The notes beneath the pieces are model-generated. The model was not told where the DNA came from and made no database searches. It saw only the letters and a list, made by a program, of their open reading frames with translations. Made by a program: the position numbers and the translations under genes. A DNA stretch of 41,653 nucleotides from the NCBI GenBank assembly GCA_031277335.1, contig JAITMM010000172.1, positions 1 through 41,653 of the forward strand. Reading direction: 5' to 3'. Every line of letters starts with the position of its first letter. Within the stretch, counting starts at the first letter, position 1. This document shows, one piece after another, positions 1 through 13,367 of the stretch. Source of the stretch: Tannerella sp. Lineage in GTDB: Bacteria > Bacteroidota > Bacteroidia > Bacteroidales > Tannerellaceae.

Positions 1-152
1 ATGCGATACATATAGGCTTCTGCCAAAGCGCCGTCCTGCCAAACGGCGTCTGCCGTGATTTCCGTAGGCGGAGCATAATCCATAAAGTCGGTGCATGAAG
101 TGGAAAACAGTAGCGCCGCAAATAAGATGATAATAAAACTATATCTTTTCAT
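1..152 (-). CDS. SusD/RagB-family lipoprotein, N-terminal fragment (susD1)
   Basis: This is the first 50 codons of a SusD-like nutrient-binding lipoprotein; the rest lies beyond the window edge. The start at 152 gives a lipoprotein signal peptide ending in LLFSTSC, with Cys20 as the lipidated residue. It is followed by TDFMDYAPPTEITADAVWQ. This matches the N-terminus of the complete SusD2 at 7971 almost residue for residue (SDFMDYPPPTEISADALWQ), so the two are paralogues. It lies 13 nt downstream of susC1 on the same strand, as expected for a susCD operon. SusD proteins sit on the cell surface as a lid over the SusC channel and bind glycans or peptides. The substrate cannot be told from this fragment. 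Confidence 0.9.
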   Translation of the reverse strand, partial: MKRYSFIIILFAALLFSTSCTDFMDYAPPTEITADAVWQDGALAEAYMYR

Positions 153-165
153 ATTTATCTAATAT

Positions 166-3100
166 TTAAAAAGTTAATTTAAAACCGGCATTCAGAGTCT
201 TCAGTTGAGGATAACTCGTTGCGTTATTGCTCGTTGATTCCGGATCTCTGTCAATTCCCGTGAATGTCAGCAAATTTTGTCCGCTGACAAATATACGCGC
301 TCCGGCGATAAACTTGGATTGCTGTACGATATGACGCGGAAGGTTATAACCCAATTCCACATTTTTCAACCGCACATAGTCGGTTTTGAACATCCAGAAA
401 GTATTGTTTCCGGCTGCATTGCCGTTATCCCAATAAAAAGCCGCCCTGTCATGTACGCGCGGATACTTGTCGCTGGGATTATTGTACGACCAGCGATGGT
501 CGTAGATATATTTCGTCCAGTTGCCGATAGAACCGGCATCGTGATAGACTTTTGTCCAGGCATCGAATGCACCTTGAAACAGGAAGGAGAAGTCGACGTT
601 TTTATATTGGAACATTGCATTAAGCCCTCCATTCCATTTCGGGATATTCGTTCTGTTAATCCTCACGCGGTCATCGCCATCGATCACACCGTTTTTGTCG
701 TAGTCCACAATTTTCATATCACCGGGCTTAATACCGGAATTTAGCACGCCATCGACAACGGCATCGTTTGTTACGCCCGAATAAAGAGGACGGTTGGCAT
801 AATTATTGACTTCGTCCCAGTCTTTAAATGCACCATCATAAAGATAATACATATCGGCATCGATCATTTTGCCGGTGACCGTTTGATACGGAGGCGAGCC
901 TAATGCCTCATCCCTGAAGATAATCTTATTGTCTGCATAGCCACCGGAAATGCTGATATCGTACCAGAAATCTTTGCCGATTTGGTCTGTCCAACCGATT
1001 CTGAAATCAAATCCTTTGTTTTCAACTTTACCGATATTTTCTGCCGGCAGTGTCAAACCTGTTGATTGCGGAATGGAAGCATTTCTACGCCACAATACCT
1101 GCGACCGTTTGTTGATAAAATAGTCGGCTTCTAATGATAACCTGTTTTCTACGGCGCGCATTTCAAATCCGACGTTGACCATGTCTTGTACCTCCCATGT
1201 GATATTTGTATTCGGGAAGCGGCTGACTTCTATAGATTTGACATCCTGACCGCCAACGACATAACCAAAGCCGTACTGATAGGTAGCCAAGTACTGGTAT
1301 TCCTGCAAATAACGGTCGGTGCCATTGTTGGGGTCAAAATAAACCTGGTCATTTCCAACACGCGACCATGAACCGCGAACTTTGAAATATTCCAGGAACG
1401 GAACGTTTGATTTCCAGAAATCTTCTTCCGAGATGCGGTATCCCACCAGAACACCGGGGAAGAAACCGTAGCGTTTGTCTTTGGGGAACATATAAGAACC
1501 GTCGTAACGCCATAGGAACTCGAACAGATATTTTTCGGCATAGTTATATGCTAAACGTCCGAAATAATGCATCGTCCGGCGATCCCAGTTATCACGTCCG
1601 CCGCCTGCTTCGGCATTTTTTTCCACGTCGCCTCCGGCAGTAAGTGTCTGGACGGCTGTAGAGAGGTAGTATCTGCGGAATCCCCAGAAATAATTCCTGT
1701 TGCCTACATTCTTTTCGGTACCGACCAAAGCCGAAACGCCATGCGGCCCGAATTTCTTATCATACGTCAAGTATGCACCAAGTGTAGTTCTGGTTTCATC
1801 CGACATTTGTTCAGTAAGTTTAGGATCCATGGTCTGAACGGCGCTTAATGTCTTGTTCAGCACCGGAATATTATTGGCGTCAACTGTTACGCCGTCCCAT
1901 GTATAGAGATACCAAGGCTGTTCCCATATTTTATTACGCTGAAGCGCCTTGTCATAAGCTGCTGTGAACGACAATTTCAACCCGTCAATCCATGGATTGG
2001 TAATATCGGCTCTCAGGTTGGACTGTACACGATATGTTGTTTCGTGACGGTATCCTGTCTGGCTTGATCCGGCAATGACGGGATTACGTCCATATTCCTG
2101 CGCAGGACCTGGCAGACCATTAGGCCAGAAAGCAGGATCGGTCGGACGTCCGCGAGACGTAAGCCATAACATATCGCTTACATTGCCTTGAGCAGCTCTT
2201 TTATATCTTTCCTCGCGTCCAAGAAGACCTGCACTGAGTTTGATAAATTCGCTCACATTGGCGTCGAGATTGATACGCATATTGTACTGTTCATATCCGC
2301 CGTATCCGTTCCTGATGTTTGAAGGTTGATTCTGGTATCCGACAACGGCAAAATACTGAATATCTTTCGTACCGCCCGAAATGGTGGCAGAGTGTTTTTG
2401 TGTCGCTGTCCATCCCTTAAATGTTTCTGCATACCAGTCGGTATTCGGATAACGCCAAGGGTCGGAGCCGTCCTTGTATTTCTGGATATCTTCGGCCGTA
2501 AAGGGCAGATTCACTGTCGGGTTACGATCCGTATTTGTCATCTGTGCATTGAAAGCAAGTTCATTACGAAGATCGGCATATTCCCATGCATTGGCCATGG
2601 TTGGATACGATGTGACGCGTTCGAGTCCGAAATTGGCCGAATACTCTACCGTAGGCTTTGTCTGTCCGGAATCTCCTTTCTTTGTTGTGATCAGGATAAC
2701 GCCGTTGGCTGCACGGGCGCCATAGATAGCGGCTGCACCGTCTTTCAACACGGAAATCGTTTCAACTTCGTTGGGATCCAGGCGCGCCATTCCACCTCCA
2801 CGGTCGGCGATACCGTCAATCACAACGAGCGGATCGGCATATCCGAATGTGTTTGTACCACGGATCCGAATGGTGGCATTGTCCTGTCCCGGTTCGCCCG
2901 AACGCTGGAAAGTAACAACACCGGGCATACGTCCCGTTATGGCATGTGTAAGGTTCGAGGCCGGTGATTTCAACAGTTCTTCGCCCTTGACCATGGCAAC
3001 AGAGCCTGTCACGGTTTCCTTTTTCTGCACGCCATAACCTACGACGACGATTTCTTCAAGTGTCTGAAGGTCTTCGTGCATCGTTATATTGATGACCCGC

Positions 3101-3366
3101 TGGTTGCCTACCGTAACTTCCTGCGACAGGTAACCCACATAACTAAACGAAAGTACCGACTGGGCATTGGGCACCTGAATGGAATAATTTCCATCCACAT
3201 CGGTTGCAATACCTGTTGTCGTACCTTTCACTTGTACGCTCACGCCAATTAGCGATTCGCCGTTTACATCGGCAACGGTTCCCGTTACGCGGACTTGTGC
3301 GAATGTCATTGCAGACGTACATAACATGAATATCAAGGCAATAAAGCCTGTAATACTTTTTTGCAT
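166..3366 (-). CDS. SusC/RagA-family TonB-linked outer membrane protein (susC1)
   Basis: This 1066-residue protein has the SusC layout: a signal peptide (about residues 1-24, ending TFAQ), a carboxypeptidase-regulatory-like domain (about 25-105), a plug domain opening with VVVGYGVQKKETVTGSV and containing RIRGTNTF and VLKDGAAAIYGARAANGV, then a long beta-barrel ending in LTF. SusC proteins import oligosaccharides or peptides across the outer membrane using TonB energy, with SusD as the lid. The gene is intact and about as long as SusC2 (1052 aa), to which it is clearly paralogous. The first 18 codons are identical at DNA level to susC2 although much of the rest has diverged. The upstream leader is conserved with that of susC2, but no TAnnTTTG promoter is visible upstream. 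No sigma/anti-sigma or hybrid regulator gene is adjacent, so the substrate is unknown. Confidence 0.96.
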   Translation of the reverse strand: MQKSITGFIALIFMLCTSAMTFAQVRVTGTVADVNGESLIGVSVQVKGTTTGIATDVDGNYSIQVPNAQSVLSFSYVGYLSQEVTVGNQRVINITMHEDLQTLEEIVVVGYGVQKKETVTGSVAMVKGEELLKSPASNLTHAITGRMPGVVTFQRSGEPGQDNATIRIRGTNTFGYADPLVVIDGIADRGGGMARLDPNEVETISVLKDGAAAIYGARAANGVILITTKKGDSGQTKPTVEYSANFGLERVTSYPTMANAWEYADLRNELAFNAQMTNTDRNPTVNLPFTAEDIQKYKDGSDPWRYPNTDWYAETFKGWTATQKHSATISGGTKDIQYFAVVGYQNQPSNIRNGYGGYEQYNMRINLDANVSEFIKLSAGLLGREERYKRAAQGNVSDMLWLTSRGRPTDPAFWPNGLPGPAQEYGRNPVIAGSSQTGYRHETTYRVQSNLRADITNPWIDGLKLSFTAAYDKALQRNKIWEQPWYLYTWDGVTVDANNIPVLNKTLSAVQTMDPKLTEQMSDETRTTLGAYLTYDKKFGPHGVSALVGTEKNVGNRNYFWGFRRYYLSTAVQTLTAGGDVEKNAEAGGGRDNWDRRTMHYFGRLAYNYAEKYLFEFLWRYDGSYMFPKDKRYGFFPGVLVGYRISEEDFWKSNVPFLEYFKVRGSWSRVGNDQVYFDPNNGTDRYLQEYQYLATYQYGFGYVVGGQDVKSIEVSRFPNTNITWEVQDMVNVGFEMRAVENRLSLEADYFINKRSQVLWRRNASIPQSTGLTLPAENIGKVENKGFDFRIGWTDQIGKDFWYDISISGGYADNKIIFRDEALGSPPYQTVTGKMIDADMYYLYDGAFKDWDEVNNYANRPLYSGVTNDAVVDGVLNSGIKPGDMKIVDYDKNGVIDGDDRVRINRTNIPKWNGGLNAMFQYKNVDFSFLFQGAFDAWTKVYHDAGSIGNWTKYIYDHRWSYNNPSDKYPRVHDRAAFYWDNGNAAGNNTFWMFKTDYVRLKNVELGYNLPRHIVQQSKFIAGARIFVSGQNLLTFTGIDRDPESTSNNATSYPQLKTLNAGFKLTF

Positions 3367-3394
3367 ACTACACTTTTTTTAATTGTTTTGTTAA
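3313..3394 (-). repeat. 82-bp perfect inverted repeat, copy 1 (susC1 5' end)
   Basis: The 28 nt before the susC1 start and its first 18 codons are identical, in inverted orientation, to 4778-4859 at susC2. It is the strongest part of a longer inverted similarity that runs to about 3584 and, more weakly, through the coding sequence. Identity at synonymous positions suggests recent recombination or gene conversion. Confidence 0.93.
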
Positions 3395-3584
3395 TTTTTT
3401 TATGTTCACTCTCATTTTTTGTTTAGAATTTGTTTGATAAATTGAATGGTCTATCCCATCCAATCTCTTTGAAAAATCGCATCGTTTCATCTCTCTTCAT
3501 AGGCTCATCATTTTTTTTTAATTTGACTTGTATACATTAATATATTATCACTTGTTCAATTTAATCGTTCATTTAATTTCGACA
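3366..3584 (-). promoter_or_regulatory. Conserved susC1 leader (inverted copy of the susC2 leader)
   Basis: About 219 nt upstream of susC1 align almost end to end with the 220 nt upstream of susC2, with few indels. Shared blocks include GTCGAAATTAAA, GAACGATTAAATTGAACAAG, AATGATGAGCCTATG and TTGGATGG. Similarity stops abruptly beyond TGTCGAAATT. The leader contains a 25-codon ORF at 3423-3500. No Bacteroidetes-type promoter is visible just outside this copy. The rest of the gap up to higB is AT-rich and carries a small hairpin and the higB promoter. Confidence 0.85.
3423..3500 (-). CDS. Putative 25-aa leader peptide upstream of susC1
   Basis: An ATG-to-TAA reading frame of 25 codons inside the conserved leader. 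It aligns without indels to the 25-codon ORF at 4673-4750 and shares 17 of 25 residues: MKRDETM at the start, FFKEIGW in the middle and NKF at the end. The ATG overlaps the stop of a tiny MMSL ORF (ATGA overlap), also conserved in the second copy. The leader ORF ends 56 nt before the susC1 start. It resembles no family I know. The preserved length and frame suggest it is translated or serves as a regulatory leader, but most codon differences change the amino acid, so protein-level selection is unproven. Confidence 0.5.
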   Translation of the reverse strand: MKRDETMRFFKEIGWDRPFNLSNKF

Positions 3585-3667
3585 ACTTTTGACCATTTTT
3601 TAGAGAGGTAAGAAAAGCCCGTCATTCCGCACTTGATGCGTAATCTTTTCATTTTTACGAGGGAGAA

Positions 3668-3686
3668 TTGCGGAACAAATCCGCAA
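3668..3686. repeat. Small inverted repeat (TTGCGGA / TCCGCAA)
   Basis: A perfect 7-bp stem with a 5-nt loop (ACAAA) between the susC1 leader and the higB promoter. It is not followed by a T-run, so it is not a typical terminator. It could be a protein-binding site. Confidence 0.4.
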
Positions 3687-3734
3687 AGAATCAGATAAAA
3701 AACGTTTGTAAGCCTATTTTTGCGAGAAAACGCG

Positions 3735-3742
3735 TATCTTTG
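3735..3742 (+). promoter_or_regulatory. Putative -7 element of the higBA promoter (TATCTTTG)
   Basis: An exact match to TAnnTTTG, 14 nt before the higB GTG. The predicted transcript would begin a few bases before the start codon. No TTTG is present at the ideal 19-21 nt spacing; the nearest lie 12 and 26 nt away. Confidence 0.55.
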
Positions 3743-3756
3743 TCAAAAAAATTAAG

Positions 3757-4050
3757 GTGAGAGTTATTGCCAAAAAGACTTTGAGAGATTATTGGGAAAT
3801 TCATACGGATTGCGAGCAACAGCTAAAATCTTGGTTTCAGGAAACTGAAAAGACTTTGTGGACGAATCCGAATGATATAAAAATAATGTATCCCAGTGCA
3901 AGTATTCTAACAGATAATCGTGTGACTTTCAATATCAAAGGAAATAAATACCGTCTGATAGTGAAAATAAACTATGCTTATCAAATAGTCTGGATTCGTT
4001 TTATTGGTACTCATGCAGAATACGACAAAATTAATGCTGAAAAAATATAA
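3757..4050 (+). CDS. higB: HigB-family toxin (RelE-like mRNA interferase)
   Basis: This 97-residue protein fits the HigB family: N-terminal RVIAKKTLRDYW, a central charged helix (CEQQLKSWFQE), then NIKGNKYRLIVKINYAYQIVWIRFIGTHAEYDKI, the beta-sheet typical of ribosome-dependent RNases that cut mRNA. The start is GTG at 3757, preceded by a good -7 element, and no upstream ATG is in frame. The antitoxin starts one base after the stop, and toxin-first order is characteristic of HigBA. The pair is AT-rich compared with the flanking susC genes, which suggests acquisition by transfer. It lies exactly between the two inverted susC leaders. Confidence 0.88.
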   Translation: MRVIAKKTLRDYWEIHTDCEQQLKSWFQETEKTLWTNPNDIKIMYPSASILTDNRVTFNIKGNKYRLIVKINYAYQIVWIRFIGTHAEYDKINAEKI

Positions 4051-4051
4051 G

Positions 4052-4411
4052 ATGATGAAAATTAAAGCAATTAAAACAGAAAAGGATTATCAGGAAGCGT
4101 TGATAAGACTTGAAACAATTTTTGATGCAAAGGCAGGTTCGGCGCAAGGCGATGAACTTGAAGTGTTAGCGATATTAATTGACCAATATGAAAAAGAACA
4201 TTTTCCGATAGGTCTGCCTGATCCGATTGAAGCAATTAAATTTAGGATGGAACAACTCAATTTCACTCAAAAGGATTTGGCTATGATTATCGGTGAGAAA
4301 AGTCGTACTAATGAGATCATGAATCGTAAAAGAAAGCTCTCGCTTGGTGTAATTCGTCAATTACATAGCCAATTGAATATTCCTACCGATGTTCTTGTGC
4401 AGGCGTATTAA
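4052..4411 (+). CDS. higA: HigA-family antitoxin with HTH domain
   Basis: This 119-residue antitoxin has an N-terminal toxin-binding part (KTEKDYQEALIRLETIF) and a C-terminal XRE-type helix-turn-helix (FTQKDLAMIIGEKSRTNEIM, then RKLSLGVIRQLHSQLNI). A longer frame opens at 4004 inside higB, but ATGs at 4052 and 4055, directly after the higB stop, give the N-terminus expected for the family (MKIKAIKTEKDY), so the start is placed at 4052. HigA neutralises HigB and usually represses the shared promoter, here probably around 3735. Confidence 0.88.
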   Translation: MMKIKAIKTEKDYQEALIRLETIFDAKAGSAQGDELEVLAILIDQYEKEHFPIGLPDPIEAIKFRMEQLNFTQKDLAMIIGEKSRTNEIMNRKRKLSLGVIRQLHSQLNIPTDVLVQAY

Positions 4412-4544
4412 ACCTTCGTTTTTTTTCATCAGCCATCGAAAATTTCCTCACCATCCATTATGCCGTTTTAAGGGCATTTGAGGGGTGTAACTAAAGATTT
4501 TTTAAACTTTTTTTTGCGAAAGTGTAATTTTTGTGAAAAAAAAT

Positions 4545-4575
4545 TTTGAAATGTAATTTTTTGTCATTACGTTTG
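4545..4575 (+). promoter_or_regulatory. susC2 promoter (TTTG-N19-TACGTTTG)
   Basis: TTTG at 4545-4548 and TACGTTTG at 4568-4575 are separated by 19 nt, matching the Bacteroidetes housekeeping promoter. The predicted transcription start is near 4582, giving a leader of about 224 nt. The sequence conserved with susC1 begins at about 4587, so the conserved unit corresponds to the transcript and not to the promoter. The preceding stretch from 4412 is AT-rich and includes only a weak hairpin at 4446-4483. Confidence 0.75.
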
Positions 4576-4585
4576 CGCAGTTTTT

Positions 4586-4805
4586 CTGTCGAAATTAAAC
4601 GAACGATTAAATTGAACAAGTGAATATATAATATTAATGTATAAAAGTCAAATTAAAAAAAATGATGAGCCTATGAGAAGAGATGAAACGATGAATTTTT
4701 TCAATGAGATTGGATGGATTGCTCCATCAATTTTACAAAACAAATTTTAAAGCTAAATGAGAGAGAATATAAAAAATTTAACAAAACAATTAAAAAAAGT
4801 GTAGT
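4586..4805 (+). promoter_or_regulatory. Conserved susC2 leader
   Basis: This is the 5' leader of susC2 and the inverted counterpart of 3366-3584. It starts at the predicted transcription start and contains two related short segments (ATTAAACGAAC, ATTAAATTGAAC), the MMSL micro-ORF at 4662-4676, and the 25-codon ORF at 4673-4750. The last part is A-rich with no terminator-like hairpin, so classic transcription attenuation is not obvious. Confidence 0.8.
4673..4750 (+). CDS. Putative 25-aa leader peptide upstream of susC2
   Basis: A 25-codon ORF with start, length, frame and stop all conserved with 3423-3500. Shared residues include RDETM, FF, EIGW, P, L and the terminal NKF; one substitution is a conservative K/R. 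The ATG overlaps the TGA of an upstream MMSL micro-ORF, which would allow coupled translation. It lies 55 nt before the susC2 ATG and downstream of a good promoter, so it should be transcribed. Function is unknown; a role in leader control or an sRNA target are possibilities. Confidence 0.55.
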   Translation: MRRDETMNFFNEIGWIAPSILQNKF

Positions 4806-4859
4806 ATGCAAAAAAGTATTACAGGCTTTATTGCCTTGATATTCATGTTATGTACGTCT
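4778..4859 (+). repeat. 82-bp perfect inverted repeat, copy 2 (susC2 5' end)
   Basis: Identical, in opposite orientation, to 3313-3394. It covers 28 nt of leader and the first 18 codons of susC2. Recombination between the copies would invert about 1.4 kb that includes higBA, both leaders and the susC2 promoter. Confidence 0.93.
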
Positions 4860-7800
4860 ACCATGGCGCTGGCTCAGTTCAGAGTAACCGGAACGATCAC
4901 CGATTCAAAGAATGAGCCGCTTATTGGCGTGAGTGTACAGGTGAAAGGTACGACAATAGGCATGGCAACGGACGTTGACGGTAAGTACGAACTTCAAGTC
5001 CCCAATGCCCAGTCGGTACTGACGTTTTCATACGTTGGTTTTATCACGCAGGAAATTACTGTAGGTAACCAACGGAATATAAATGTCGTGTTGGAAGAAG
5101 ACTTTCAAACGCTTGAAGAAGTTGTCGTAGTCGGTTATGGCGTACAGAAGAAAGAAACTGTAACAGGTTCTGTGACAACGGTGAAGGGAGAAGACTTGCT
5201 GAGATCTCCGGCTACTAATCTATCCCAGGCGATTGTAGGACGTTTATCAGGTGTGGTCACGTATCAGCGTTCCGGCGAGCCGGGCTATGACGATGCCACA
5301 ATCAGAATCCGTGGTGTCAGTTCATTCGGCGAAACAGAGCCGTTGGTCGTTATTGACGGGGTGGCCGACCGCGCAGGCGGTTTGTCGCGCTTGGACCCGA
5401 ATGAAATCGAAAGCATGTCCGTATTGAAAGACGGTGCTGCCGCTATCTACGGCGCCCGTGCAGCAAACGGCGTTATCCTGATCACAACCAAGAAAGGTAC
5501 AATCGGCAAGCCGGTAGTGGAGTTTGCGGCCAACTTTGGCGTCAATACACCCACGATGCTGCCCAAGATGTCCAATGCTTGGGAATATGCCGAGTTGAGA
5601 AACGAACGACTGCTGAACGATGCGATGACGGCTTCCAACCCAAATCCATCCATCACCCTCTGGAAAACTCCGGAAGAAATCGAAAAATACAAGGAGGGTT
5701 CCGACCCTTGGCGTTATCCGAATACCGACTGGTACGACGCCACCTTTAAGGATTGGACACCACAGTCCTACTATACGGTTTCACTGAGTGGAGGAACAGA
5801 CAAGATGACGTATTTTGCCAATTTCGGTTACAGATCGCAGGGCAATAACTTTATCAAAGGATATGGCGGCGAGGATATTTACAACCTGCGTATCAACCTT
5901 GATGCTCAGGTAAACGACTATATCAAAACAAGCGTCAGCCTGATGGGACGTGAAGAGCGGTTTAAACGTGGTACTCAATCACCCGGCGATAACCTGTGGT
6001 TTACGTCGCGCGGACGTCCTACGGATATAGCCTACTGGCCGAACGGCTTACCAGGCCCGGCCCAGGAATACGGCCGTAACCCTGTCATCAGCGCATCTCG
6101 CGAAACAGGATATCTTCATGAAAATACGTATACCGTACAAAGCTTGGCCAAAACGGAGATTACGCAACCATGGATTGAAGGGTTGAAACTGACGTTAAGC
6201 GTTTCGTACGACAAGCGTCTGTTCAGGTACAAACAATTCTACCAGCCATGGTATCTCTATACCTGGGACGGCAGTACAGTGGATGGCAACAATATCCCGG
6301 TGCTGAACAAGGTATTGAGTTCGCCCGGCCAGAACAATATGTTTTCCGACCCCGCATTGTGGGAGCGTGCATCAGACCAGACCAATACAACGCTATCGGC
6401 GTTGCTGACCTACGACCGCACGTTTGGTGACCATGGCGTCAATATCCTTGTCGGAGCTGAAAAGGATACCGGTAACAAAAATGAAATCAGGGCATTCCGC
6501 AGGTATTTCCTCTCCGATGCCGTTCAGACGCTGGATGCCGGAGGTGACCTGGAAAAGAACAACGATGCCGGCGGAGCCGGAAACAACTGGGACCGCAGGC
6601 GTATGAATTACTTCGGACGTGTTGCCTACAATTACAAGGAGAAATATTTGGCCGAATTTTTATGGAGGTATGACGGATCTTACATGTTCCCTGCCGACAC
6701 GCGCTTCGGTTTCTTCCCCGGTCTCCTCTTGGGATACCGTATCTCTGAAGAAGATTTCTGGAAATCGTCTGTTCCCTTTATCGACTACTTTAAAATCCGC
6801 GCATCCTATGCCACCATCGGATACGACAGGATTTATTATAATGATGCATTGCAGGAATACCAGTACTACGCTACATATCGATACGGCGCCGGTACTGTCA
6901 TTAACGGCCAGGATGTGAAAACGATTGAACTAAGCCGTCTTCCCAATATGGCTATTACCTGGGAACGTCAGGATGATATGAATGTGGGAATTGAAGGACG
7001 CACACTGGACAGCAGACTTTCCTTTGAATTTGATGCTTTCCTGAAGAAACGTTCCAATATCTTGTGGCGTAGGAATGCTTCCATTCCGCAAACGGCAGGT
7101 CTGACGCTTCCGGCTGAAAATATCGGAAAAATGGACAACAAGGGATTCGATTTCAGACTTGCATGGGACGACCGTATAGGTCGCGATTTTGTCTATCAGG
7201 TTGCGCTCACGGGAGGTTATGCCCAGAATAAAATAGTCTTCTGGGACGAAGCAGCCGGAACTAAAGAATGGCAGCGATCGACCGGTAAAAAACGCGATGC
7301 CGGCCTGTACTTTGAATACGACGGTGTATTCAAAACATGGGAAGAAGTTCAAAACAAAACACTGGATTATTCCGGCGTAACAGCCAATTCCAATATGAAA
7401 CCCGGCGATATCAAATTCAAGGATATAGATGGCAACGGCATCATCAACGGCGATGACCGGGTAAGAATCAACCGGACAAATATCCCGACATGGAACATGG
7501 GACTTCAAGCTTTATTCCAATACAAGGGATTCGACCTGAATCTTCTTTTCCAGGGCGCCTTTGACTCATGGACAAAAGTCTATCACGACTCAGGAGATAT
7601 CGGAAACTGGACGAAAGAGATTTATGACAATCACTGGTCCATTGCCAATCCGTCCGACAAGTATCCGCGCGTACATGCCCGTCAAGTCGACTACTGGGAT
7701 CAGGGAGACGGCGGTAACAATACCTGGTGGATGTGGCGTACAGATTATATCAGGTTGAAAAATGCTGAGTTGGGATATACGATCCCCAGGCAGTTGCTGG

Positions 7801-7964
7801 CGCAAACCAATTTTATTTCCAGTTTACGCATATACGTAAACGGTCAGAACCTGTTTACTTACGCATTTTCAGGCATCCAGCGCGATCCTGAAGTAACGCA
7901 AAATAATGCAACCAATTATCCGCTTCTGAAAGTATTCAACGCAGGATTTTCAGTAACATTTTAA
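4806..7964 (+). CDS. SusC/RagA-family TonB-linked outer membrane protein (susC2)
   Basis: This 1052-residue SusC protein has a signal peptide (ending ALAQ at residue 24), a carboxypeptidase-regulatory-like domain, the segment VVVGYGVQKKETVTGSV, a plug with RIRGVSSF and VLKDGAAAIYGARAANGV, and a barrel ending in FSVTF. It is paralogous to SusC1, with the same block order and many identical stretches (for example DPWRYPNTDWY and NASIPQ), but differs in loops, so the two may take related but not identical substrates. The start at 4806 is supported by the matching susC1 start. SusD2 follows after 6 nt. A recognisable promoter at 4545-4575 and the conserved leader precede it. Confidence 0.97.
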   Translation: MQKSITGFIALIFMLCTSTMALAQFRVTGTITDSKNEPLIGVSVQVKGTTIGMATDVDGKYELQVPNAQSVLTFSYVGFITQEITVGNQRNINVVLEEDFQTLEEVVVVGYGVQKKETVTGSVTTVKGEDLLRSPATNLSQAIVGRLSGVVTYQRSGEPGYDDATIRIRGVSSFGETEPLVVIDGVADRAGGLSRLDPNEIESMSVLKDGAAAIYGARAANGVILITTKKGTIGKPVVEFAANFGVNTPTMLPKMSNAWEYAELRNERLLNDAMTASNPNPSITLWKTPEEIEKYKEGSDPWRYPNTDWYDATFKDWTPQSYYTVSLSGGTDKMTYFANFGYRSQGNNFIKGYGGEDIYNLRINLDAQVNDYIKTSVSLMGREERFKRGTQSPGDNLWFTSRGRPTDIAYWPNGLPGPAQEYGRNPVISASRETGYLHENTYTVQSLAKTEITQPWIEGLKLTLSVSYDKRLFRYKQFYQPWYLYTWDGSTVDGNNIPVLNKVLSSPGQNNMFSDPALWERASDQTNTTLSALLTYDRTFGDHGVNILVGAEKDTGNKNEIRAFRRYFLSDAVQTLDAGGDLEKNNDAGGAGNNWDRRRMNYFGRVAYNYKEKYLAEFLWRYDGSYMFPADTRFGFFPGLLLGYRISEEDFWKSSVPFIDYFKIRASYATIGYDRIYYNDALQEYQYYATYRYGAGTVINGQDVKTIELSRLPNMAITWERQDDMNVGIEGRTLDSRLSFEFDAFLKKRSNILWRRNASIPQTAGLTLPAENIGKMDNKGFDFRLAWDDRIGRDFVYQVALTGGYAQNKIVFWDEAAGTKEWQRSTGKKRDAGLYFEYDGVFKTWEEVQNKTLDYSGVTANSNMKPGDIKFKDIDGNGIINGDDRVRINRTNIPTWNMGLQALFQYKGFDLNLLFQGAFDSWTKVYHDSGDIGNWTKEIYDNHWSIANPSDKYPRVHARQVDYWDQGDGGNNTWWMWRTDYIRLKNAELGYTIPRQLLAQTNFISSLRIYVNGQNLFTYAFSGIQRDPEVTQNNATNYPLLKVFNAGFSVTF

Positions 7965-7970
7965 CATTCA

Positions 7971-9842
7971 ATGAATATGAAAAAATATAGTATAATTTTT
8001 ATATTGAGTATGGGGCTTCTCTTTGCTCCTTCTTGCAGCGATTTCATGGATTATCCGCCTCCGACAGAGATTTCGGCTGATGCTCTCTGGCAGGATGGGA
8101 TTTTGGCGGAAGCCCTTATGTATCGCATCTATTTTACATTCCAGGATGCAGGTTTTACCGAAGAAACGTTAGCTTCGGCTACCGATGAATCCATGTTTAT
8201 TCACGGACGCGAGTTTCGGCAAACGATGGCAGGCGCCGTGAACGATTTGCAGCTTGGCTATATCGGAAAAGAACAAAGCGGACATCAATGGGCAAAACTG
8301 TATCTGTCTATACGTACGTGTAACGACTTTATTGCCAATATAGATGCTGCCACGTTCGACAACCGCGACAAGAACCAGTTGAAAGGTGAAGCCTATTTTC
8401 TGCGCGCTTATTTCTACCACCGTCTCACGCGGGCATTTGGTGGTGTGCCGCTTATCTTGAATGTCACCACACTGCAAGACGATGTCGAATCATTCCAGGT
8501 GCCGCGTTCATCCTATACGGAATGTATAGATCAGGTACTGAGCGATCTGGGTCAGGCCGAAACGTTGCTGGCAGGCTATAACATGGACAATACGCTAAAA
8601 GGACGTGCCACGGCTGCCGCAGTCAAGGCGCTGCGTGTCCGCGTATTGACCGATGCAGCCAGCAATTTGCACGATGAACCGACGGCTACGGCTCATGCAA
8701 GTATTTTTGCATCCTACGCCAATAAGGAATTGCTTTTCTATAACAAGGGAAGCAGAGCCGACAGATGGAATGCTGCCAAGAATGCTGCAAAAGACCTGAT
8801 GGACAACCCATTGGGACATGAACTTCCGACATTTGGAGGCGATGGCCTCTCGGTCGAGGAAAAAGCGCAAGCGTATTGGAGCCATTTCAATCAGGATAGC
8901 CCTGACCATATTTTCTCACGCTATTTCATCTTCACCAAAGGTGAGGCCGGAACAAGATTTTCTCTCTTTAACGGTCCTGCCGGTTATCATGCGTGGGGCG
9001 GCAACGTGCCTACACAGGATATGGTGGATTCTTACAGCATGGCAGATGGCTCGGCATTCGACTGGAACAACGCTGAAATGAAGGCAGCTCCGTATAAGAA
9101 CCGCGAACCGCGTTTCTATGCCAGCATCTTCTACGACGGCGCGCAATGGATTCAAAGGCCTTCGGACTATGCAGTCTCCGATCCGTCCGGCAGAATCCAG
9201 ACAGGATATTATCAGCTGAACCCCGGTGATGCCGTAGCCGCCTATTGGCCCGGCATGGACACTCGCGAAGGTGGCGGTGAGAACTGGAATGCAACGTTTA
9301 CAGGCTATTATGTCAAGAAATTTGTCAATCCGAGAGATGGTGTACACGCAAATAATATTAATTCCGTATTCCCGTTTATTCGCCTTACGGAAGTCTATTA
9401 CGATTATATTGAGGCTTGTATAGAACTCAACGAACTCGACGAAGCAAAAACGTATCTCAACCAGATTCGTAAGAGCGTTGGAATGTCTGACATCACGTCG
9501 ACCAGTCAGGCCGAACTGCGCAGTATTTATCAGAACGAACGTCGCAAGGATTTCTTCTATGAAGAACATCGCTACTGGGATATGCGTCGCTGGCTGATCG
9601 CACAAGGTGCTCCTGGACTCAATTCCTTAAAAGGTGTCACTGTAAACGCAGCGCTGAAACCGGGCGTCACATTAGGTGCCGGAGAACGCTACACTCACGA
9701 CGAAACGCGCTGGAACTACACGTATACCGTTGAGGAATTGTCGGTTGAACCGCGTAACTTCCCCGATAAGTGTTATTTCATGCCGATTCACCGCGATGAA
9801 ATGAACCGTAATCTAACGTTGATTCAGAATCCCGGTTATTGA
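7971..9842 (+). CDS. SusD/RagB-family surface lipoprotein (susD2)
   Basis: This complete SusD protein (623 aa) has a lipoprotein signal ending in LLFAPSC (Cys22) and typical SusD sections: early TPR-like helices (LKGEAYFLRAYFYHRLTRAF), a central loop-rich region, and the C-terminal RagB part (TEVYYDYIEACIELNELDEA, NERRKDFFYEEHRYWDMRRW, PIHRDEMNRN). It would cap SusC2 and bind substrate at the surface. ATGs occur at 7971 and 7977; the second gives MKKYS, aligning better with MKRYS of SusD1, so the true start may be 7977. It begins 6 nt after susC2 and the operon ends at a strong terminator at 9885. Confidence 0.96.
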   Translation: MNMKKYSIIFILSMGLLFAPSCSDFMDYPPPTEISADALWQDGILAEALMYRIYFTFQDAGFTEETLASATDESMFIHGREFRQTMAGAVNDLQLGYIGKEQSGHQWAKLYLSIRTCNDFIANIDAATFDNRDKNQLKGEAYFLRAYFYHRLTRAFGGVPLILNVTTLQDDVESFQVPRSSYTECIDQVLSDLGQAETLLAGYNMDNTLKGRATAAAVKALRVRVLTDAASNLHDEPTATAHASIFASYANKELLFYNKGSRADRWNAAKNAAKDLMDNPLGHELPTFGGDGLSVEEKAQAYWSHFNQDSPDHIFSRYFIFTKGEAGTRFSLFNGPAGYHAWGGNVPTQDMVDSYSMADGSAFDWNNAEMKAAPYKNREPRFYASIFYDGAQWIQRPSDYAVSDPSGRIQTGYYQLNPGDAVAAYWPGMDTREGGGENWNATFTGYYVKKFVNPRDGVHANNINSVFPFIRLTEVYYDYIEACIELNELDEAKTYLNQIRKSVGMSDITSTSQAELRSIYQNERRKDFFYEEHRYWDMRRWLIAQGAPGLNSLKGVTVNAALKPGVTLGAGERYTHDETRWNYTYTVEELSVEPRNFPDKCYFMPIHRDEMNRNLTLIQNPGY

Positions 9843-9884
9843 TTAGGCTTTTCAAGCTTTTTAAAGTTTAACTTTTTCATTCTG

Positions 9885-9926
9885 ACAGGAGGAAAGCGTT
9901 TATACGTCTTTCCTCCTGTTTTTTTT
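9885..9926 (+). terminator. Rho-independent terminator of the susC2-susD2 operon
   Basis: ACAGGAGGAAAG at 9885-9896 pairs perfectly with CTTTCCTCCTGT at 9908-9919; the stem can extend by CGT/ACG with one bulge. A run of eight T follows (9919-9926). It stands 43 nt after the susD2 stop. Confidence 0.93.
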
Positions 9927-9937
9927 AACGCAGCGCT

Positions 9938-10633
9938 TCACAACACCTGCACAGCCGAGACTGCAAATATGCTGATGCGGAGGTCGGGGACAGCGTCCAA
10001 AGCTTTGATGCAAGCCCTTAGGGTGGCGCCGGTGGTGATGACGTCGTCGATAAGCAGGATGTGTTTTCCCGCGAGCGATGCGACGTCCGAGACGGAAAAT
10101 ATTTCTTCAACATTCAGGTTGCGTTCGTAAACTGTCTTGCGAGTTTGGGTCACGGTATCTACATTTCTGATTAACATGTCTTTACTAATCGGGCAATGAT
10201 AGACTTCTACAAATCCCTTAGCTATCCATTCGGCTTGATTATAACCGCGTTTGCGCTCCTTTCGTCGGTGCAGAGGCACAGGGACGAGCATATCAATTTG
10301 GCCGAACAAGCCGTCATCTTTCATTTCGAGCGCGGCAATTTTCCCCAAGTATCCGGCTAATTGTTTGTTGTCGTGGTATTTAAGCGAGTGGACAAGATGT
10401 TGGACGTTGCCGTCTTTTTCAAAAAACAGAAAAGCAGCCGTTTCATCAATCCTGATAAAACCTGTAAACAGTTTCAATAAAGGATTATCTGTACGCCTGT
10501 GATAATGCGTGCGTGGCAATTCGCAAAAGCAGTGCAGGCAAAGAAACTGCTCGTCGTCATTCAACCGCTTGTCGCAATACAGGCATAGCCGCGGGTAAAA
10601 CAGCTCCAGCAAATTACGTATCTGAGTCCACAT
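9938..10633 (-). CDS. comF: ComF-family phosphoribosyltransferase-like protein
   Basis: This 231-residue protein has the ComF layout: an N-terminal zinc-ribbon-like part (CLYC near residues 17-20 and CLHC near 32-35) and a C-terminal type I phosphoribosyltransferase fold with the PRPP-binding motif HILLIDDVITTGATL. VPVPLHRRKERKRGYNQAE is the other family signature. ComF relatives are linked to natural transformation, but in Bacteroidetes a role in DNA uptake is not established. It overlaps recX by 20 nt and is the last gene of prmC-recX-comF, converging on the susD2 terminator. Confidence 0.9.
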   Translation of the reverse strand: MWTQIRNLLELFYPRLCLYCDKRLNDDEQFLCLHCFCELPRTHYHRRTDNPLLKLFTGFIRIDETAAFLFFEKDGNVQHLVHSLKYHDNKQLAGYLGKIAALEMKDDGLFGQIDMLVPVPLHRRKERKRGYNQAEWIAKGFVEVYHCPISKDMLIRNVDTVTQTRKTVYERNLNVEEIFSVSDVASLAGKHILLIDDVITTGATLRACIKALDAVPDLRISIFAVSAVQVL

Positions 10634-11105
10634 CGAAATCGGTATGAAGAATTTTTTTTAGTTGCTTGACAATCAGGGAGCTTTCAAAGCCTCGCCCGGC
10701 AGCAAACCGGTAGAGCTTTTGAAAGGTATCATATTCGTTTTTCCCTTTGGTAGACTTTTTTTTATCTTTCAGCAAGCCATTCAGGACGGTTTCATATTCA
10801 TTTTCATCCAATTGTCCTATGGCCTCGTCAATCAGACTGCCTTGAATATTTTTTCCCCGCAGTTCGTAGCTGATTTTGATGCGCCCCCAGCGATTGAACT
10901 TGAATTTGTCATTGACGAAACTGCGGCAAAAGCGCGTTTCGTCGATGAATTTCTCTTGCACGAGCCGTTTGATAATCTTATCTGCCGTTTCAGGCGAAGC
11001 GCCGGCGTCAGTAATTTTACGGCTTACATCACTGATACATCGTTCAGCCATAGAACAATATGAGGCAGCCATTTGCAGCAATTCCGAATAGTTATGTTGT
11101 TTCAT
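10614..11105 (-). CDS. recX: RecX-family regulator of RecA
   Basis: This 163-residue protein is made of the three-helix repeats of RecX: AASYCSMAERCISDVSRKI, then IKRLVQEKFIDETRFCRSFVNDKF and the typical WGRIKISYELRGKNIQ, ending in KLYRFAAGRGFESSLIVKQL. RecX binds RecA filaments and limits their activity. It begins 3 nt after prmC and overlaps comF, so the three are almost certainly co-transcribed. Length is normal for the family. Confidence 0.92.
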   Translation of the reverse strand: MKQHNYSELLQMAASYCSMAERCISDVSRKITDAGASPETADKIIKRLVQEKFIDETRFCRSFVNDKFKFNRWGRIKISYELRGKNIQGSLIDEAIGQLDENEYETVLNGLLKDKKKSTKGKNEYDTFQKLYRFAAGRGFESSLIVKQLKKILHTDFDVDSDT

Positions 11106-11108
11106 TTG

Positions 11109-11966
11109 TTATTTTCTTGCTTTTATAAACCGTTCCTTTCCGGACAAATCATGTATCGTCTCAATCTCGCGGTATCCCTGTTGGGCGAGCATTCTGCTGA
11201 TTGTATCGCTGAAAGCCGCATTTATTTCAAAATACATTAATCCATTGAGATTCAATTTATTCAAACTGAATGAAGCTATCCGCAGATAAAAGATAATCGG
11301 GTCGTTATCGGGTACAAATAGAGCCGTTTGCGGCTCGTAGTTGAGTACATTGGGATGAAGCGAGGCTTTCTCACTGACGGTTACATAAGGCGGATTACTC
11401 ACAATCAAATCAAAATTAGGTAGTTGCGAAAGATTATCAATATCGTGCGAAAAGATATCAGCCTGAAGGAACCTGACATTTACAACGTTTTTTTGCGCAT
11501 TTTTCTTCGCGACAACGAGAGCATCCTCCGAAATATCAAGCGCATACACATTTGCTGAGGGTATATTTTTGGCCAGCGCGACGGCTATACACCCGCTTCC
11601 CGTACCTATATCCAACATGGAAATTTTATCATGCTTCAAACGCTTCATATCCTGTATTATGCGATGCACCAATTCCTCCGTTTCAGGTCGGGGAATAAGC
11701 ACGGCAGGTGTAACTTCAAAAGTCAATCCATAGAACTCTGTCTCCCCAAAAACGTACTGAATCGGCTCTGCATTTTTGAGGCGTTCGACAATCGCATGAA
11801 CTGATTTTTTTTGCAAAGCAGATAATTGTCTATCTTTGCAGAAAATTTGCCGGCTTCGTGACAGATTGCAACATTTTTCGAGTATCAGGCCCGTCAGACT
11901 GCGTATTTCCTCAGGCGGATACAGCGGAGCCAGCACTCGTTGGATATATGTAATTGTTTCGTACAT
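11109..11966 (-). CDS. prmC: Peptide chain release factor N5-glutamine methyltransferase
   Basis: PrmC (HemK) methylates the glutamine of the GGQ motif in release factors RF1 and RF2 using S-adenosylmethionine. The sequence shows the N-terminal helical domain, the SAM-binding motif MLDIGTGSGCIAVALAKN and the catalytic IVSNPPYVT. The frame opens at 11999 with MEYRIECSYLF, but MYETITYIQRVLAPLYPPEE at 11966 matches the usual N-terminus, so I place the start there (285 aa). It is the first gene of prmC-recX-comF and diverges from ribD across a region with a REP-like element. Confidence 0.92.
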   Translation of the reverse strand: MYETITYIQRVLAPLYPPEEIRSLTGLILEKCCNLSRSRQIFCKDRQLSALQKKSVHAIVERLKNAEPIQYVFGETEFYGLTFEVTPAVLIPRPETEELVHRIIQDMKRLKHDKISMLDIGTGSGCIAVALAKNIPSANVYALDISEDALVVAKKNAQKNVVNVRFLQADIFSHDIDNLSQLPNFDLIVSNPPYVTVSEKASLHPNVLNYEPQTALFVPDNDPIIFYLRIASFSLNKLNLNGLMYFEINAAFSDTISRMLAQQGYREIETIHDLSGKERFIKARK

Positions 11967-12003
11967 AAAAAGATATGAGCATTCAATGCGATACTCCAAT
12001 TCG

Positions 12004-12125
12004 GCAATCCGTTAGGATTGCATCGCTCGGTAGAAAAGATGTAGCGCGATTGGTTGCATTCCGTACGGAATGCATCCGGTTGACCACCTGTTTTTCTACC
12101 GAGCGTAGCATCCCTGACAGGATGC
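12004..12125. repeat. REP/BIME-like multi-hairpin element
   Basis: Three hairpins with related stems are regularly arranged: GCAATCC-gtta-GGATTGC (12004-12021), GCATTCCGTACGGAATGC (12056-12073, an 18-bp perfect palindrome) and GCATCC-ctgaca-GGATGC (12108-12125). A 14-bp perfect inverted repeat, CGCTCGGTAGAAAA at 12024-12037 and its complement at 12092-12105, encloses the middle hairpin. The two outer modules (hairpin plus CGCTCGGTAGAAAA) are thus an inverted pair, as in bacterial interspersed mosaic elements. I infer a non-autonomous REP-type repeat; such repeats are usually mobilised by a Y1 (RAYT) transposase encoded elsewhere. Confidence 0.75.
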
Positions 12126-12174
12126 TTGCGAACTTAGACATGATGTTTAGCATTCATTTTAAGAAATTGTGATA

Positions 12175-12182
12175 CAAAGATA
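12175..12182 (-). promoter_or_regulatory. Possible -7 element reading toward prmC (TATCTTTG)
   Basis: An exact TAnnTTTG on the minus strand, just upstream of ribD. If used, the prmC transcript would start near 12168 and carry the REP-like hairpins in a leader of about 200 nt. No TTTG occurs at 19-21 nt spacing. Confidence 0.35.
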
Positions 12183-12203
12183 TAAAAATAGCGTCAAAAA
12201 GAT

Positions 12204-13367
12204 ATGCAGATAGATGAAAAATTTATGATGCGTTGTCTTGAACTGGCCAAATGCGGCAGATCGACTGTCGCTCCAAATCCTATGGTAGGCGCTGTGATTG
12301 TGCATCAGGGGAGAATTATCGGAGAGGGTTTTCATCGCGTTTATGGCGATGCCCATGCCGAAATAAATGCTATTCAGGCTGTTGAAGATGAAAGCTTACT
12401 GCGTGATTCGACGTTGTATGTCAGTCTTGAACCATGCGTGCATATCGGAAAAACGCCTCCATGCGTGAATATGATTGTTGAGAAACGAATCCCAAGAGTC
12501 GTCGTCGCATGTATCGACCCCAATCCAAAGGTGTCCGGCAAGGGGATTCAGTCATTGCGTGAAGCCGGAGTAGAAGTAGTTCAAGGAGTTATGGAGCAGG
12601 AAGCCATAGAGTTAAACCGTTTTTTTATGACTGCCCATACAAAACAACGTCCTTATGTGATTTTGAAATGGGCGCAAAGCCGTGACGGATACATGGATGG
12701 CATTAGAAATAATACCATTTCGCGGCAAGATAAAGCTACTGCGGACAAAGCATCCACAATCGACTTGCAAAACGACTTCAATACAAGCGTCCCAGTAATA
12801 TTGTCGAATGCAGTTACATTCAGGCATTTACATAAATTACGCACAGAGATTTCGGCAATCATGGTAGGCACAAATACGGCTTTGATGGATAATCCATTGC
12901 TGACCGTCCGCCATTGGATAGGCAAATCGCCTGTGCGCGTGTGCATTGACCGCACGAGGCGTATACCGTTGTCGCATCATTTACTGGACGGTTCAATCCC
13001 TACGCTTATTTTTACATCGCAAAATACAATTCACGCAGTCGAAGAAAACAGTGAAAATATTGAATATATCCCGCTGGATTTCTCCCAACCCGTTCTTATA
13101 CAGATATTACAAGACTTATACGAACGAAAACTTTATTCATTGCTGGTCGAAGGCGGCGCACGCCTGCACGCAAGTTTTTTTAACGAAAAACTTTGGGACG
13201 AACTGCAAATAGAAACGTCTCCGCTCGAATTGAGAGGCGGCGTAAAAAGTCCTGCTTGTGATTTAAGTGAAATAGCTGTTTTTCAGAAATATATTGATTT
13301 TTCGTCGGACACACTCTCCGGAGAGCCTCAATCTTTTATTTCGGTATATACTTGTAATCAATTGTAA
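12204..13367 (+). CDS. ribD: Bifunctional riboflavin deaminase/reductase RibD
   Basis: RibD performs the second and third steps of riboflavin synthesis: deamination of the pyrimidine from GTP, then reduction of the ribose. The N-terminal deaminase (about residues 1-150) carries the zinc motifs HAEINAI and EPCVHIGKTPPC. The C-terminal reductase (about 150-370) has RPYVILKWAQSRDGY, VGTNTALMDNPLLTVR and LLVEGGARLHASF. At 387 aa it is slightly longer than many RibD proteins; the extra residues lie around 175-205 (between RNNTISRQ and VILSNAVTF), so it is not truncated. The ATG at 12204 gives a normal N-terminus (MRCLELAKCGRSTVAPNPMVG). Confidence 0.95.
   Translation: MQIDEKFMMRCLELAKCGRSTVAPNPMVGAVIVHQGRIIGEGFHRVYGDAHAEINAIQAVEDESLLRDSTLYVSLEPCVHIGKTPPCVNMIVEKRIPRVVVACIDPNPKVSGKGIQSLREAGVEVVQGVMEQEAIELNRFFMTAHTKQRPYVILKWAQSRDGYMDGIRNNTISRQDKATADKASTIDLQNDFNTSVPVILSNAVTFRHLHKLRTEISAIMVGTNTALMDNPLLTVRHWIGKSPVRVCIDRTRRIPLSHHLLDGSIPTLIFTSQNTIHAVEENSENIEYIPLDFSQPVLIQILQDLYERKLYSLLVEGGARLHASFFNEKLWDELQIETSPLELRGGVKSPACDLSEIAVFQKYIDFSSDTLSGEPQSFISVYTCNQL

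Follow-up and report, generated by a model that had tools for sequence, protein, structure and literature searches.

A predicted Mpi-type invertible promoter segment carrying a higBA pair between two divergent susCD operons of Tannerella sp.

The DNA analysed here (the window) is a stretch of 41,653 nucleotides from Tannerella sp., contig JAITMM010000172.1 of assembly GCA_031277335.1. It forms the entire contig C29 of a source genome of 3.43 Mb in 284 contigs (98% complete) and contains two divergent susCD operons flanking a higBA toxin-antitoxin (TA) pair (Table 1). The susD gene of the left operon (susD1) is cut by the window start, with the remaining susD1 opening contig C41. The two operons are paralogs; SusC1 and SusC2 share 66.5% amino acid identity and are closer to each other than to the fully compared genes of the genus and sister genus (maximum 60%), while SusC relatives in a wider scan of genome contigs displayed 43-50% identity (best 80 of 176). 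The toxin gene precedes a helix-turn-helix (HTH) antitoxin gene, which is the HigBA gene order, and NCBIfam gave no match for the higB or higA-like product. Screening of window positions 1-12500 with Rfam returned nothing. The arrangement is probably that of an Mpi-type (serine-invertase) invertible promoter serving both susCD operons, with higBA in its loop.

Table 1. Features of the susCD-higBA locus, in window coordinates.
Feature	Position	Strand	Details
susC1	166..3366	-	1066 aa; TIGR04056 868.6 bits, cut-off 368.25
82-bp perfect arm, susC1 side	3313..3394	-	28 bp upstream plus 18 codons; outside predicted flipping segment
Candidate upstream ORF, susC1 leader	3423..3500	-	25 codons; counterpart of 4673..4750; from sequence and leader alignment
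Left inversion site (predicted)	3553..3584	-	TGTCGAAATTAAATG-AA-CGATTAAATTGAACA (minus-strand reading); profile E 2.1e-5
Loop of predicted invertible segment	3585..4586		1002 bp
Extra loop DNA including higBA	~3593..4485		~890 bp, edges approximate; inferred from loop lengths and alignment
Dispersed repeat	3618..3646		26-29 bp matched at seven other genome places, 93-97% identity
Candidate higBA promoter	3735..3742	+	-7 TATCTTTG; TTTG absent at canonical spacing
higB, RelE-like toxin	3757..4050	+	PF09907 114.6 bits, cut-off 27; 2.5e-33
higA-like antitoxin with HTH	4052..4411	+	HTH_3 22.4 bits, 0.6 under cut-off 23
Promoter-side loop part	4486..4586	+	Similar to C280 promoter loop; left edge approximate
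susC2 promoter	4545..4575	+	-33 TTTG, 19-bp spacer, -7 TACGTTTG; ends 11 bp before right site
Right inversion site (predicted)	4587..4618	+	TGTCGAAATTAAACG-AA-CGATTAAATTGAACA; profile E 3.2e-6
Candidate upstream ORF, susC2 leader	4673..4750	+	25 codons; from sequence and leader alignment
82-bp perfect arm, susC2 side	4778..4859	+	Outside predicted flipping segment
susC2	4806..7964	+	1052 aa; TIGR04056 889.6 bits, cut-off 368.25
susD2	7971..9842	+	SusD_RagB PF07980, 2.1e-50

At the inner edge of each susC leader lies a predicted 32-bp inversion site, composed of two roughly palindromic halves around a central AA. The two sites are in inverted orientation and share the central dinucleotide (AA/AA). 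The right site contains GTTCGTTTAA exactly on the minus strand (4595-4604) and the left site has one mismatch to it, so that the Mpi-type core (ARACGTTCGTN or GTTCGTTTAA) is present at the sites of the window. In the excerpts of PMC8375218, GTTCGTTTAA is the 10-bp repeat flanking the invertible capsule promoters of Bacteroides intestinalis, it partly overlaps the B. fragilis Mpi repeat ARACGTTCGTN, and transcription in B. intestinalis starts inside the proximal repeat. The shared leader begins with 32 bp, TGTCGAAATTAAACG-AA-CGATTAAATTGAACA, that recur elsewhere in the genome, with 13 matches against 3 in the control (at most 3 mismatches in the first 19 bases). The 10-mer alone is weak evidence for an inversion site, and the genome-wide pairing of the sites is strong evidence.

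The susC2 promoter, which carries the Bacteroides promoter motif as given in the available portions of PMC4747536 and PMC8748976, abuts the right site from inside the segment, and the inverted sites flank it. As the original prediction had stated, the only strong susC promoter lies within the loop, at susC2; for susC1 the same promoter rule yields nothing better than a weak match, TTTTTTTG with a TTTG spaced 19 bp from it (the -7 begins at 3751 on the minus strand). The missing good susC1 promoter was considered as proof of switching and rejected. Of 17 susC leaders scanned by this rule, seven had no promoter match and four had a full match, and the absence at susC1 is therefore weak evidence.

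A sequence-only profile was built from 14 aligned sites of seven loci and run on ten whole genomes. In the source genome, where 150 of 2,646 first-look candidates were scored, it placed 18 sites below E 0.01, distributed over nine loci (C29, C35, C57, C108, C114, C180, C280, C282 and C284), including C57 and C284, which were outside the training set. Every locus has two inverted sites and, among the scored candidates, none was solitary. The nine other genomes gave one match below E 0.01 (G005). The central dinucleotides, read on the minus strand for the left site and on the plus strand for the right, match between paired sites in all nine loci: AA in C29, C35, C57 and C180; AC in C114, C280 and C284; GT in C282; and TT in C108. 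When the right sites were permuted among loci, nine matches occurred in 79 of 200,000 trials. Site starts lie 137-164 bp apart in eight loci (loop lengths 105-132 bp), against 1,034 bp in the window. Eight of the nine loci, the window among them, have an exact TAnnTTTG that stops 0-12 bp short of one site within the segment, C108 having TACCTTTA; four of those eight (C29, C114, C280 and C284) add TTTG at 19 bp. At C57, where a single susC is seen, the promoter points away from it, as expected of an OFF state. Eight of the nine loci adjoin susC genes, as four divergent pairs and four single genes, and ten proteins beside seven of the other loci belong to the SusC family (TIGR04056, all above cut-off). 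At C280 the neighbouring protein (1243 aa) has fimbrillin-like and IgGFc-binding-type domains. The sites, their pairing and orientation, the matching dinucleotides and the promoter, as well as the family of the enzyme described below, are directly legible in the DNA.

A separate observation concerns locus L198 (G000:C282, 5939-6110), where a third, weaker site is found at 140 bp from the middle one, beside a promoter directed at the right-hand susC. Because the central dinucleotide of this third site is different, a second segment there is possible at best.

No invertase gene was found in the window, as originally noted; whole-genome searches with PF00589 and PF00239 matched other contigs only. 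The source genome encodes four tyrosine recombinases (PF00589; on C63, C197, C203 and C212) and two serine recombinases (PF00239). The serine recombinase on contig C113 (196 aa) is an Mpi-family equivalog (NCBIfam NF009949, 323.6 bits against a cut-off of 272), and its nearest solved chains are the DNA invertases 4m6f and 3uj3, to which it aligns. No inversion site of this family was found on contig C113 itself by weight-matrix scan, and a search for local inverted repeats near four recombinase genes gave nothing clear. The second serine recombinase, on C39 (G000:C39:10814-11248, L154), is cut by the contig end and shows weak likeness to the Mpi and Ccr families, scoring 42.4 bits against the Mpi cut-off of 272. 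Three of the four PF00589 proteins were scored (C63, C197 and C203) and none reached an invertase-model cut-off: C63 scored best with XerC and passed only the XerA_Arch cut-off, and C197 and C203 fell below every NCBIfam cut-off. The original prediction had left recombination to RecA or to an enzyme elsewhere; the Mpi-family protein of C113 offers a candidate for the second option and, because this invertase is in the genome, RecA is not needed.

Under the preferred reading, the C113 enzyme would most likely pair the two window sites, cut at the central AA and rejoin the strands. In the assembled orientation the promoter inside the right site is predicted to drive susC2, and inversion would turn about 1.0 kb and place the same promoter before susC1, again 11 bp from the site. 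Transcription is expected to start in the proximal site, judging from the position of the promoter. The higBA pair would turn with the promoter and so always point at the susC that is on. A flip moving the promoter from susC2 to susC1 had been proposed to run across the long repeats; a promoter segment with higBA between inverted repeats is well supported, but the crossover is likely at the 32-bp sites and not in the arms. Crossover at 3553-3584 and 4587-4618 would give a flipping segment of about 1.0 kb that does not include the 82-bp arms. The same Mpi-family enzyme most likely acts on at least nine loci of the genome. We infer that the C113 enzyme acts on these sites, that the segment of the window actively flips and that expression is switched as a result. 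The reading predicts a surface-protein switch spanning the genome, with nine loci (eight susC-linked) under a single Mpi-family enzyme, and the exact predicted sites are testable with sequencing reads.

Related genomes were compared for the flipped order. None of 40 other genomes of the genus matched the 2-kb region at E 1e-20, so the flipped order was not found among them; with the leader alone, 4 of the 40 yielded matches, all short and weak, and part of the arm (35 bases) was absent from a viral contig collection. In the sister genus g4, G057:C222 and G058:C93 (genomes 60% and 83% complete) represent the same divergent susCD locus, with an outer gene common to both on each side. In G057 two similar sites form a perfect inverted pair of 25 bp (L212, 5701-5725 and 6030-6054), and the promoter between them points left. 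The homologous piece of G058, comprising promoter and site (85% over 75 bp), has the rightward orientation, and the leader stretches on both sides are collinear with those of G057. Inversion would be the simplest account of the opposite promoter orientations. These sites were not recovered by the profile and have low matrix scores (see below), and they are therefore regarded as relatives by anatomy and core.

The coding parts of this sister-genus locus have also been rearranged. On the left side of G058, SusC and SusD match their right-hand counterparts in G057 at 92 and 94% identity, and the junction falls within the 5' coding region. The flanking genes of the two genomes are 86 and 77% identical, the outer genes staying in place. 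In the divergent susC genes of L210 and L212 the N-termini are kept by side and the bodies, together with susD, are exchanged between sides, in the manner of a cassette exchange. Simple inversion was rejected as the source of this body exchange and cassette replacement is likelier, since the outer genes are fixed and the exchanged SusC and SusD resemble each other more closely than the flanking genes do. Tandem repeats of about 83 bp fill the loop of the G058 segment (L210:4237-4671).

Several results weigh against an enzyme-driven switch at this locus, or narrow it. The assembly shows one orientation only. Matches to GTTCGTTTAA at one mismatch are ordinary in the window (6 seen against 4.7 expected), and the Mpi core taken as ARACGTWCGT shows no enrichment across the genome (23 matches against 35 in the control). 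Of the 18 sites, 14 belonged to the training set; the finding that none is solitary holds for the 150 scored candidates of 2,646, and by weight matrix C108 and C282 each have a weaker third site. TTTG at the usual spacing is missing for four of the eight -7 boxes. The C113 enzyme is linked to the sites by its family and by the core only. In the other three divergent pairs the right-hand susC has its own promoter outside the two-site segment (full at C35 and C282, partial at C108), so that strict either-or switching is predicted for the window only. As for the sister genus, the profile did not recover the G057 and G058 sites at E 0.5, and a matrix from the alignment behind the profile gives them only -6.7 to 8.3; separate promoter gain in the two genomes could also have produced the opposite orientations, and the exchange of susC bodies is unexplained by a single inversion.

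The 82-bp perfect inverted repeat reported in the original prediction was confirmed at exactly the same coordinates, and invites a different route of inversion. The accompanying inverted similarity, put at about 280 bp, is 88% over 3313-3584 against 4587-4859, and its strong part ends at 3584/4587 in the leaders; in the other direction it continues into the coding sequence (an arm of 782 nt at 76%, followed by blocks of 70-91%), owing to the paralogy of the two susCD operons. Over the whole genes, susC1 and susC2 differ by a synonymous pS of 0.69 and a nonsynonymous dN of 0.27, which places synonymous sites near saturation. In the arms, however, all 18 codons are identical, 16 of which have synonyms (P ~3e-5 given the amino acids). 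The arm block is somewhat constrained, with 74-86% identity in five other susC genes against 63-68% in the remainder; scaling by one outgroup gene (G045), 18% differences are expected in 82 bp, giving a P of zero differences of ~1e-7. The paralogs are old and the arms are far more alike than paralog divergence predicts, which shows recent recombination between the arms.

Recent recombination between the paralogs is what would be expected if RecA acted across the 82-bp arms (within 272 bp at 88% identity), flipping 1.4-1.5 kb in the manner of the Campylobacter fetus sap genes. The window does possess long identical 5' ends of the kind that serve as crossover arms in sap (82 bp, perfect), and the sister genus shows susC bodies exchanged between sides with a junction in the 5' coding region. 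Arm identity by itself, however, is evidence of recombination and not of inversion, and gene conversion suffices to explain it. Furthermore, the three other divergent susC pairs of the genome have paired sites and no long perfect arm, the longest run in their first ~900 coding bases being 17 bp. Since these pairs have sites and no arms, the RecA route ranks below the site-specific one, and we consider it quite unlikely to be how the segment flips; RecA inversion across the arms could occur beside the enzyme-driven route, as a secondary possibility. The near-identical leaders and 82-bp arms are best read as the outcome of recent gene conversion, perhaps favoured since both operons must work from one promoter. 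An Mpi consensus at the end of the 82-bp arm (AGACGTACAT) was also considered as a crossover site and rejected: the window has 15 one-mismatch matches against 9.3 expected, a count attained by 4 of 100 shuffles, and no enrichment of the exact pattern is seen in the genome (23, control 35).

The 32-bp palindromes could instead be operators of a dimeric regulator lying just past the start site, in a fixed inverted duplication kept alike by gene conversion and without any switching. Plain operators were the initial reading of the sites: each is palindromic, overlaps the expected transcription start and mostly precedes a susC gene, and the other divergent pairs also have ordinary promoters outside the segment. 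This reading was dropped on the site pairing, the matched dinucleotides and the promoter reversal between G057 and G058. Two inverted copies per locus, with locus-specific central dinucleotides matched in 9/9 cases, answer a need of strand exchange and not of an operator. The spacing near 140 bp in most loci, the C57 promoter facing away from susC and the match to the published Bacteroides inversion repeat likewise speak for inversion sites, and a locus that does not switch is, in our estimate, very unlikely.

Tsr0667 is a tyrosine recombinase, and the sites of serine invertases have palindromic halves around a 2-bp centre. The least likely of the alternatives is that another enzyme inverts the segment, either one of the four tyrosine recombinases (Tsr0667-like, as Tsr0667 carries out SusC/SusD inversion in B. 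fragilis according to the excerpts of PMC4747536) or the second PF00239 protein, since of the three tyrosine proteins scored C63 is best matched by XerC, C197 and C203 lie below all NCBIfam cut-offs, the C39 protein is truncated with its score far under the Mpi cut-off, and the palindromic halves around a matched 2-bp centre fit a serine invertase.

It appears that the size of the segment in the window is due to an insert. The promoter-side end of the loop resembles, by alignment, the 107-109-bp loops of C280, C114 and C284 (74% to the C280 promoter loop over window 4493-4613), whereas the remaining ~890 bp have no counterpart in those loops and hold the dispersed repeat and higBA; it is this extra DNA that brings the segment to 1,034 bp. 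By eye the dispersed repeat (3618-3646) is REP-like (repetitive extragenic palindrome). A higBA relative with 67% DNA identity sits between other genes in G114. The higBA module thus seems to have entered, or to have been kept in, a pre-existing invertible promoter segment. The TA pair may further be a working part of the switch, making loss of the promoter loop costly and, since higBA always points at the susC that is on, having its expression coupled to the active receptor by read-through or HigA autoregulation. We regard this working-part reading as unlikely; if true, the insert would be a stabiliser and modulator of the phase switch and not a chance passenger. No invertible segment carrying a TA module was found in the literature searched (open-licence PMC text), and the locus raises the question whether an addiction module that flips with a phase switch can stabilise or tune it.

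The susC leaders also share a short element. Both candidate 25-codon open reading frames (ORFs) start at GCCTATG (window 4669-4675 and its susC1 counterpart), and their peptides are similar by eye (RDETM, FF, EIGW, P and NKF positions), possibly representing a leader peptide. Of 34 susC leaders, 13 (L101-L106, L110, L119, L126, L128, L136, L138 and L139) carry GCCTATG 112-209 bases ahead of the automatically called start, against a letter-shuffle expectation of 0.38, and by eye several of them show a very short ORF or a hairpin-like stretch after it. Rfam gave no match in nine leader loci, eight with GCCTATG (the ninth being L018), and among the matches listed in a literature search for GCCTATG there was no susC-leader paper by title. 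GCCTATG may be an undescribed leader element.

Inversions of comparable layout are known. As in the S-layer inversion of C. fetus sap, which Dworkin and Blaser reportedly described in 1996, one promoter and genes lie on an invertible segment between divergent homologous genes; sap crossover uses conserved gene 5' ends and RecA, whereas short sites and an invertase are favoured here. The Hin/hix system of Salmonella is alike in its invertible segment of ~1 kb with a gene inside and in its palindromic sites (hix, 26 bp) with a central dinucleotide, but there the inside gene is the invertase, not a TA pair, and one operon is controlled instead of two divergent ones. In the B. fragilis Tsr0667 inversions, as far as the excerpts of PMC4747536 and PMC11852207 describe them, inversion likewise decides which SusC/SusD is expressed; those are multiple inversions of the shufflon type, whereas the window has serine-type sites and a simple two-site segment. 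The closest likeness is to the Mpi promoters of B. fragilis and B. intestinalis (excerpts of PMC8375218 and PMC4747536), with the same core in inverted sites, an internal TAnnTTTG promoter, a start expected at the proximal site, and an Mpi-family enzyme able to act at a distance, one enzyme for many loci. The targets here are mainly susC loci (8/9, with four divergent pairs) and not capsule loci, and the segment of the window measures 1.0 kb and includes a TA pair. Mpi-type inversion itself is known; what would be new, judged by the open-licence literature searched, is an Mpi-type invertible promoter segment, as predicted here, that carries a TA pair and serves two susCD operons.

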